From Archangium sp. (GTDB taxonomy: Bacteria > Myxococcota > Myxococcia > Myxococcales > Myxococcaceae), in contig JAUYRZ010000033.1 of the NCBI GenBank assembly GCA_030695565.1, forward strand, positions 62,001-126,000: a stretch of DNA of 64,000 nucleotides, read 5' to 3'. Positions within the stretch are counted from its first letter, which is position 1. Each line of letters begins with the position of its first letter. Below are positions 45,630 to 47,926 of the stretch, piece after piece. Under the pieces are notes generated by a model. The model saw nothing but the letters and a program-made list of their open reading frames with translations, searched no databases and was not told the origin of the DNA. The position numbers and the translations under genes were made by a program.

Positions 45630-45671
45630 CCAGGGTGAATTTTCGGGGTGCGCTTTCCGTACAGGCACCGC

Positions 45672-46835
45672 ATGCGCGCGACCGTTCTGCTGGCGTTTCT
45701 CTGCGTTGGTTGCGTGAGCTTTCCTCGCGCGGGTCTGCTGCCAGGCACCGCGCGCGTGGAGGTGGTGCAGGGCCCGGTGGTCTGCGGCCCCCTCGGCTTC
45801 CGCGCCGTTCCCCTGCAGTCGCGCTGGGGCGAGTACGTGCGCGTGACGGTGGCCGCTCCCGGGGCGCTCAGGGGGGCGGTGCTGGTGCACGCCAACGGGG
45901 TCGCCCAGAGCCCACGGGCCTGGAGCAGCGAGTCGGTGGGCGCGCTGGTCGTCGAGGCGCGGTTCCCCAATGAGGATGTCGATGCGCGCTTTGCGCTCGA
46001 GCGAGACCGGCCCATCGACATCACGCTGACCGGGCTTGCGGGCATGTGTGAAGGCGCGGTGTTCACGGTCGAGCATGGCGCGCTGGTGCCGTCGATCGAT
46101 GAACGCGCGTGGATCGTGGAGCTGGAGCGGCGGGGTGGGCCGGAGCTCGCTGCACGCCGGGAGTCGGCGCGGGTCGCGGCGGAGGAGAGACGGCAGGCGC
46201 ACTCCGCGCAGTGGGCGGCGCGGCCGCGGGTCGAGGCCTCGGTGGAGGTTCGGCAGGCGCACTACGCACAGTGGGAGGAACGTCGGACCGAGGGCGTCGC
46301 TGTGGTGATCGCGAGTGAGAATCCCCCAATCCTCCCGAGCACCGTCGAGGCAGTCGCAGTGGTTCGCACGGCAAGTGCCCCCTCGACTTCGCTGGGCGGC
46401 AACGGTGTCGTTGTGGTTGGTACGCCAAGTGCCGCCGCGACTTCGCCTGGGGGGAACGGTGTCGCTGAGATTCGCACGGCGAGTGCCCCCTCGACTTCGC
46501 TCGGCGAGAACGGTGTCGCTGTGATTCACACGGTCAGCGCCCCCTCGACTTCACTCGGGGAGAACCGTGCGGTCTCGCTGCCGAGCGAGTGGAGCCAGCC
46601 GGCGGAGTTCAGCGCGGAAGCCAGCTGGAGTCAGCCCTTCGCACCCCGCATGGAGACGGTGGCGGTGAGCAGCGAGTCGCAAGTCGCGACGCGGGTGAGC
46701 GGGTCCGTGGAACCCGCGTACGTGGAAACTTCCACTGAGGTCGTCATCGTTCCTGCGCTCTTCCAGCTCCTCTTCCACCTCGGAGCCGCCGTCGCCGCCC
46801 CCGCCCCGGTGCACGCCGCTCGACCCATCCGCTGA
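45672..46835 (+). CDS. Repeat-bearing lipoprotein of unknown function
   Basis: This is a 387-residue predicted lipoprotein (MRATVLLAFLCVGC, lipobox CVGC). Residues up to 160 form a beta-rich domain with two cysteines (GPVVCGPLGFRAVPLQS, LTGLAGMCEGAVFTVE). A charged stretch with two RQAH(S/Y)AQW units follows, then four 18-residue repeats of the form TASAPSTSLGENGVAVI. The repeats are translated palindromic DNA repeats (see 46359-46574), so this segment is probably a recent low-complexity insertion. The C-terminus ends in a hydrophobic FQLLFHLGAAVAAPAP. The family was not recognised. Confidence 0.65.
   Translation: MRATVLLAFLCVGCVSFPRAGLLPGTARVEVVQGPVVCGPLGFRAVPLQSRWGEYVRVTVAAPGALRGAVLVHANGVAQSPRAWSSESVGALVVEARFPNEDVDARFALERDRPIDITLTGLAGMCEGAVFTVEHGALVPSIDERAWIVELERRGGPELAARRESARVAAEERRQAHSAQWAARPRVEASVEVRQAHYAQWEERRTEGVAVVIASENPPILPSTVEAVAVVRTASAPSTSLGGNGVVVVGTPSAAATSPGGNGVAEIRTASAPSTSLGENGVAVIHTVSAPSTSLGENRAVSLPSEWSQPAEFSAEASWSQPFAPRMETVAVSSESQVATRVSGSVEPAYVETSTEVVIVPALFQLLFHLGAAVAAPAPVHAARPIR
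46359..46574 (+). repeat. Four tandem 54-bp units carrying a palindromic motif, in frame
   Basis: The units are 46359-46412, 46413-46466, 46467-46520 and 46521-46574. Each is 54 bp (18 codons) with a core close to CCCCTCGACTTCGCTCGG plus GAACGGTGT, the motif also found in the intergenic copy at 45113. Unit 2 is the most diverged. Confidence 0.85.
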
Positions 46836-46876: not shown

Positions 46877-47926
46877 ATGCCCGACGGCCCCTTTGCATTC
46901 GCCCCCCGCCTCGAGCCCACCGCGTTCGAAGCCATCCGCATCTCCGCGCTCTCCGATACCGAGCTCGACGCGCTCGCGTTCGGCGTCATCTGTCTCGACG
47001 CCGACGGCAAGGTGCTCCGCTACAACCTCGCCGAAGCGCGCCTCGCCCGCCTCGATCGCGCCCAGGTGCTGGGGAAGAACTTCTTCCGCCGCATCGCCCC
47101 CTGCACCGCGACGCCCGAGTTCGAAGGCCGGGTGCGGGCGTTCTTCAGCGCTGCACTCCCGATCGATCGCTTCTCGTACCTCTTCGACTTCAAGTTCGGC
47201 GCGCAGCAAGTGGAGATCGAGCTGGTGCGCGCGCCGGCCAATGATCGCGTCTACCTGCTGGTCAATCGCAAACAATTCGGGGCCCCGCGCGAAGGGCTTC
47301 CGGTTGGGTTTGCGGCGCCGCTCCAGGCGGAGCTGGCGCCCGGTGAAGCCGAGCTCGGTGTGCAGCGTGATGCATCAGCGCGCCGCGTGCTCTCGCTCGA
47401 CAGCAGCTTCGTGACCGCGTTGCACCAGACGTGGCTCAAGGTCGCTCCGAAGGCGTGGCCCGGGTTCACCCGCGAGTGGGGTTGGCAGTGGGGCCGCCAC
47501 GCCGTGGTCGACCTCGAAGCCGACCTGCTCGAGAAGAAGAACAGCACCCTGCGCGAGCTGCCCATGCGCGAGGCGATGGAGCTGGTCAGCCAATGGGCGC
47601 TCGCCCGCGGCCTGGGCACGCTGCGCTTCGACTTCACGCCGTCACGTCACGGCCTGTTCGGCATGACCCTCGAACGCAGCGCGGTCGGTGAAGCGGTGGG
47701 GCACAGCGACGTGCCGCGCTGTCACCTGATGGAAGGCCTGATGGAGGCGATCTGCGAACACCTCGCCCATCGCCTGCTCGCGGTGCGCGAAGTGCGCTGC
47801 TGCGCGCAGGGCTTCGACGCGTGCACCTTCGTGGTCGCCGCCGAGAAGCGGAAGGAGCAGGTCGAGAAGGCCATCAGCGGCGGCGCGGAGACCCTCGAGG
47901 CGATCGTGGAGGCGCTCCGTGCGTAG
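46877..47926 (+). CDS. Photoactive yellow protein (PYP)-like domain fused to a V4R-type domain
   Basis: This is a 349-residue cytosolic protein. Residues 24-130 match Halorhodospira PYP closely as remembered: LSDTELDALAFGVICLDADG, KVLRYNLAEA, VLGKNFFRRIAPCTATPEF. With a constant offset of 7, the chromophore Cys69 is Cys76 here, and hydrogen-bonding Tyr42 and Glu46 are Tyr49 and Glu53. Thr50 and Arg52 are replaced by Ala57 and Leu59. Residues 170-345 (FVTALHQTWLKVAPKAW, MEGLMEAICEHLAHRLLAVR, VRCCAQGFDACTFVVA) resemble a V4R (4-vinyl-reductase) small-molecule-binding domain. A blue-light or redox sensor output through V4R is inferred. GAGGGG precedes the ATG. A 57-codon gene overlaps its stop. 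No coumarate-synthesis gene is in the window. Confidence 0.8.
   Translation: MPDGPFAFAPRLEPTAFEAIRISALSDTELDALAFGVICLDADGKVLRYNLAEARLARLDRAQVLGKNFFRRIAPCTATPEFEGRVRAFFSAALPIDRFSYLFDFKFGAQQVEIELVRAPANDRVYLLVNRKQFGAPREGLPVGFAAPLQAELAPGEAELGVQRDASARRVLSLDSSFVTALHQTWLKVAPKAWPGFTREWGWQWGRHAVVDLEADLLEKKNSTLRELPMREAMELVSQWALARGLGTLRFDFTPSRHGLFGMTLERSAVGEAVGHSDVPRCHLMEGLMEAICEHLAHRLLAVREVRCCAQGFDACTFVVAAEKRKEQVEKAISGGAETLEAIVEALRA

Follow-up and report, generated by a model that had tools for sequence, protein, structure and literature searches.

The window analysed here is a stretch of 64,000 nucleotides from a myxobacterial genome of 8.5 Mb, whose nearest named gene-bearing relatives are Archangium MAGs. 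It harbours a gene in which a photoactive yellow protein (PYP) domain is fused to a C-terminal V4R domain, and this gene is followed by a coupled micro-ORF (Table 1). A preliminary description had recognized the open reading frame as a PYP-V4R fusion with neither a histidine kinase nor a GGDEF domain as output. Both domains were recovered by profiles and by an AF2 model, the V4R-like partner through a PF02830 score above the cut-off and a V4R fold in the model, and the absence of those outputs is likewise borne out. That interpretation erred in regarding the fusion as new and in attaching special weight to positions 50 and 52 of the PYP. It also passed over the coupled micro-ORF, the kinases encoded in operons with the fusion in relatives, and the kinship with V4R clusters of the bilin and PSII-assembly type. 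The architecture itself is known: 20 PYP-V4R proteins are on record, with the PYP domain N-terminal in every one, and Myxococcota are among the PYP hosts (Dohmen 2025, PMC12826048). Like the window protein, these consist of an N-terminal PYP and a C-terminal V4R domain with no other domain. The table of that survey gives no operon partner for the V4R fusions, and nothing in its text points to the unit of two or three genes in which the fusion takes the central place; the micro-ORF, an upstream kinase and a zinc-type site are added here. The identification of the two domains and of a conserved, coupled micro-ORF can be regarded as close to certain.

Table 1. Features of the PYP-V4R locus, in window coordinates
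Feature	Position	Strand	Basis or remarks
PYP-V4R fusion gene	46877..47926	+	349 aa; stop included; ATG start, AGGGG-type ribosome site
PYP domain, aa 22-131	46940..47269	+	TIGR02373, alignment to Halorhodospira PYP, structure superposition
Cys76 codon, predicted p-coumaroyl thioester attachment	47102..47104	+	Halorhodospira PYP alignment, 21 homologues
V4R-fold domain, aa 162-332 (PF02830 core aa 264-320)	47360..47872	+	Pfam profile and AF2 model
Predicted V4R zinc site Cys282, Glu305, Cys308, Cys316	47720..47824 (codon starts 47720, 47789, 47798, 47822)	+	MopR alignment, 21 homologues; zinc site known from MopR/DmpR
Micro-ORF, 57 aa	47919..48092	+	GTG start, GGAGG at 47908-47912; 8-nt overlap with PYP-V4R stop

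A genome scan disclosed 27 more PYP-V4R loci, nearly all in Myxococcota, with two in Acidobacteriota MAGs; many members of the homologue set derive from MAGs. No carotenoid or development genes were seen among the near neighbours of the fusion. A hypothetical protein encoded upstream (45648-46835) carries SAPSTSLGGNG/SAPSTSLGENG repeats at window positions 46300-46600, which may be translated intergenic repeats.

The PYP half matches the NCBIfam model TIGR02373 with an E value of 5e-26 and 91 bits, below the 143-bit equivalog cut-off. It thus falls outside the curated equivalogs, though homologous to them, as does a single-domain PYP of the same genome, which scores 102 bits. This second protein (G000:C55:72288-72623; L002:1489-1920) has Phe at position 42 and retains Cys69 and Glu46. 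The phmmer alignment of the window PYP to the Halorhodospira PYP structures (E 3e-22) is gapless and shows a constant offset of +7, so that Tyr49, Asn50, Glu53 and Cys76 correspond to Tyr42, Asn43, Glu46 and Cys69. None of these four residues varies across 21 homologues. The assignment of Cys76 and of the Tyr49/Glu53 pair in the preliminary description is therefore upheld, and the profile search and structure prediction that it had proposed as checks both place the domain among PYPs: the N-terminal half of the AF2 model superposes on the PYP structure with Z 17.3 and an rmsd of 1.5 Å. The replacements of Thr50 and Arg52, which had been thought likely to shift colour or photocycle, turn out to be ordinary, as Ala57 (position 50) and Leu59 (position 52) are the consensus of 984 PYPs. 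A more unusual change is found at the equivalent of Met100, which is Phe107 in the window protein and its relatives. Changes of Met100 in PYP slow dark recovery; a slow photocycle is for this reason possible in the window PYP.

Whether the domain is loaded with its chromophore bears on a different reading, namely that the PYP is not photoactive in vivo for want of a p-coumaroyl supply and acts as an apo or thiol-based sensor. In twelve fusion-bearing genomes, the window genome and eleven others, no 4-coumarate-CoA ligase scores above the TIGR02372 cut-off. The best ligase match, L004, reaches 105 bits against a cut-off of 335 and was rejected as the ligase serving PYP; its neighbours code for an acyltransferase, a glycosyltransferase and a large membrane protein, which suggests that it belongs to an aryl-polyene-like cluster. 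The homologue alignment also shows Pro68 changed to Arg or Lys in a subset of relatives, a further point on the side of a non-photoactive domain. Set against these observations are the invariance of the pocket Cys, Tyr, Asn and Glu and the presence in the window genome of CoA ligases and, besides HutH (L012), of one MIO lyase of unassigned specificity (L013) that falls under every curated cut-off. On balance a non-photoactive PYP is unlikely.

The C-terminal half matches PF02830 with 39.1 bits (cut-off 31 bits, E 8e-10), and in the AF2 model, built from 21 homologues and with a pLDDT of 90.9, the V4R fold extends well beyond this core. The best structural matches of the folded region are the PoxR, MopR and DmpR sensor domains, with Z about 17.5 (MopR Z 17.5) and an rmsd of 2.5-3 Å; next come MJ1460 (Z 14.2) and BcsD (Z 14). 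The last of these was placed on the V4R half by VIA-align, and its structure was solved in complex with BcsH (7zzq). The role of BcsD is in cellulose assembly, and its likeness to the window V4R is a structural one. When a profile built from the V4R half is aligned to MopR, 46 residues pair up without a gap, and Cys282, Glu305, Cys308 and Cys316 land on the zinc ligands of MopR. According to the literature the MopR/DmpR sensors contain a zinc site made of three Cys and one Glu. All four residues are present in 21 of 21 homologues. This conserved Cys-Glu-Cys-Cys set of zinc type is a new observation in PYP-V4R proteins, and it suggests that the V4R domain is zinc-stabilised. The window protein has in common with MopR, PoxR and DmpR the V4R fold and the aligned zinc ligands, but lacks their AAA+ or DNA-binding output and shows no clear phenol-anchoring His/Trp: inspection by eye of the alignment of 21 homologues revealed no conserved pair of this kind in the DmpR phenol-anchor region.

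A phylogenetic tree gathers the V4R domains of PYP-V4R proteins into a single group with 98/98 support, their position among other V4Rs being not firm. The top profile scores outside the group belong to two Myxococcota V4Rs, one at locus L051 and one in genome G014. The first lies in a cluster that also encodes a phycobilisome-type PF00502 globin, a 2Fe-2S protein, a second V4R, a Ser/Thr kinase and a PP2C, and that is of the BBAG/pre-PcyA type of Rockwell 2023 (PMC10151467). No second PF00502 cluster turned up in 195 Myxococcota genomes, G153, the genome of L051, being the only one with a match. Two small ORFs are present in this cluster (G153:C483, 1347-9671): one of 82 aa with FFTQL/FFARL and the C-end FKWD, and one of 59 aa with the C-end FKWE. 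The latter was considered as a relative of the window microprotein and set aside, since the microprotein profile does not match it. In G014 two V4Rs are flanked by ORFs bearing FFSAIPWNG and DAFVSLPWNG, the first of which matches the microprotein profile with an E value of 7e-5. These V4Rs lie at contig ends (start of G014:C71 and end of G014:C22; L050, L165), with proline-rich sequence and W-N-G motifs adjoining, and the two contigs may be neighbours.

The phenol-sensor fold and the known ligand binding of the DmpR/MopR V4Rs, together with kinship to the bilin clusters, give some support to a dual-input reading, the two-input part of which was proposed by Dohmen 2025 (PMC12826048). PYP would sense blue light, while V4R would bind a small molecule of hydrophobic or phenolic nature, p-coumarate or a tetrapyrrole perhaps, and the microprotein would be an output or stabiliser only. 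This is possible but rather doubtful, as no conserved phenol-anchoring pair is apparent and the V4R is nearer to those of the bilin clusters than to the sigma54-activator sensors tested.

The preferred reading, in which the V4R domain is a docking module, starts from the micro-ORF. Its protein product carries the motif VETYFERFDWEG...LSAEDFFTAL and matches no model in Pfam or NCBIfam. Searches with leave-one-out profiles of six-frame translations covered 27 loci, the window's own and 26 others, one locus that ends early being left out: in 26 of the 27 the micro-ORF is the best match at or just past the PYP-V4R stop, 25 with E <1e-3, and the second-best match per locus is near noise. Across 195 Myxococcota genomes, strong matches are confined to PYP-V4R loci. 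Codon-position bias is apparent in seven pairs, and dN/dS is about 0.09-0.45 in the six with computable dS, these being rough figures from short sequences. The pairing goes beyond mere synteny, since the remaining neighbours of the fusion gene vary even inside a genus. This overlooked micro-ORF coupled to PYP-V4R is new here. Two loci depart from the common arrangement. In Corallococcus sicarius (L076, 6901-7008) the motif is in frame with a V4R missing its last Cys-containing segment. The sole PYP-V4R locus devoid of a detectable micro-ORF (L078:7024-7065) has a C-terminal extension, AGDVLARLF, resembling half of the motif; docking of this tail in cis was considered and dropped, as the model leaves it undocked at an uninformative pLDDT of about 45.

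At ten loci the gene immediately upstream, which ends about 50 nt or less before the fusion gene or overlaps it, encodes a Hanks-type Ser/Thr kinase of 308-362 aa; PF00069 was confirmed in two of these kinases and the remainder were recognized by profile match. Most of the ten terminate in a tail like [FL]xxLIxxKL. The ten loci do not amount to ten independent events, because they belong in part to one clade. At an eleventh locus a 744-aa TPR kinase overlaps the PYP-V4R gene. No kinase gene adjoins the fusion in the window.

A parallel to the V4R and micro-ORF pair is encountered in Cyanobacteria. A tblastn search of plasmids with the window protein retrieved V4R genes on pREC2 and pREC3 of Acaryochloris marina; their V4Rs score 76-84 bits, and the genes lie in slr0144-0149-type clusters that encode a V4R, a small ORF, a globin-like protein, a V4R, a 2Fe-2S protein and allophycocyanin. 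The small ORF, which as at PYP-V4R overlaps the stop of the V4R gene, contains three copies of an FFxxFxWxG motif (TVREFLEGYNWSG, TVQTFFSQFNWTG and NVQAFFQHFIWEG), which are the top microprotein-profile matches in the locus (best E 0.0018); the pREC3 copy of the ORF is absent from the annotation table used. Conversely, the window microprotein scores 15.3 bits with a profile made from the cyanobacterial repeats, whereas none of 2,100 shuffled sequences exceeds 9.0; this profile assigns at least 8 bits to 10 of 21 microproteins versus 1 of the 2,100. The likeness is short, about 12 residues, though it is repeated and occupies the same gene position. The V4Rs of the slr0144-0149 and pre-PcyA/BBAG clusters (Rockwell 2023, PMC10151467) belong to the same subfamily as those of PYP-V4R, and some of these clusters have a kinase nearby (SpkG; L051), as do some PYP-V4R loci. 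In the literature the slr0144-0149 operon is tied to PSII assembly, its proteins interact physically, and the kinase SpkG, encoded by the last gene, seems to be needed for phosphorylation of ferredoxin 5. There are also differences: here the V4R is fused to PYP and the motif is present in one copy rather than three. No Fe-S protein or second V4R lies beside the window fusion gene and no PF00502 bilin globin was found in the window's genome, so that the V4R and motif-peptide pair is all that is held in common. As the V4R is kin to those of the bilin-globin clusters and the Acaryochloris ORF has the same motif, PYP appears from these sequences to have been plugged into an old cassette of V4R plus FFxxFxWxG peptide; we infer that descent ran from the bilin-cluster cassette to the PYP-V4R pair.

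The occurrence of the motif beside V4Rs without PYP also tells against the notion that the microprotein assists PYP-V4R in folding or in taking up its chromophore and stands outside the signal path. One-to-one coupling with PYP-V4R and the lack of a dedicated 4-coumarate ligase would suit such a helper, but no standalone PYP of Myxococcota came up together with the microprotein, and the idea is improbable.

Under the docking interpretation, PYP-V4R would be a cytoplasmic blue-light sensor whose input is a PYP loaded, presumably, with a p-coumaroyl thioester on Cys76. The linker of residues 132-161 would convey the photocycle change to the presumably zinc-stabilised V4R, onto which a short FFxxFxWxG peptide may dock. 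In the window genome the coupled microprotein of 57 aa would supply this peptide; for about 40% of relatives, the likely effector would be the Ser/Thr kinase of the same operon. Light on PYP would alter docking of the peptide or the kinase by V4R and in this way gate a V4R-microprotein(-kinase) complex. The pair of V4R and motif peptide would be related to the slr0144-0149-type pair of the PSII-assembly and bilin-globin clusters, with PYP added as a light input. To the mechanism as a whole, light-gated docking with a kinase output where one is present, we accord an even chance. A broader proposal falls somewhat short of that: V4Rs of the slr0144/slr0147 type may generally be receptors for the FFxxFxWxG peptide of the overlapping downstream gene, forming a module common to phycobiliprotein/PSII-assembly clusters and PYP photoreceptors, with a blue-light switch in PYP-V4R and a Ser/Thr kinase output in some lineages.

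The signal output of PYP is an open question, and PYP-V4R has so far been listed as two inputs with no apparent output. Concrete candidates for such an output are the dedicated microprotein and, at many loci, the Ser/Thr kinase encoded next to the fusion. The motif furthermore ties PYP-V4R to the cyanobacterial PSII-assembly operon, whose V4Rs have no settled role; the small soluble pair can thus be used to test what these bind.

V4Rs of another kind are also present in Myxococcota. A distinct V4R family of about 180 aa (L166-L169) sits beside genes for a tryptophanase-like lyase and response regulators in another family of the phylum; TNA-linked V4Rs (family f11) were considered and set aside, being more distant and without the motif.
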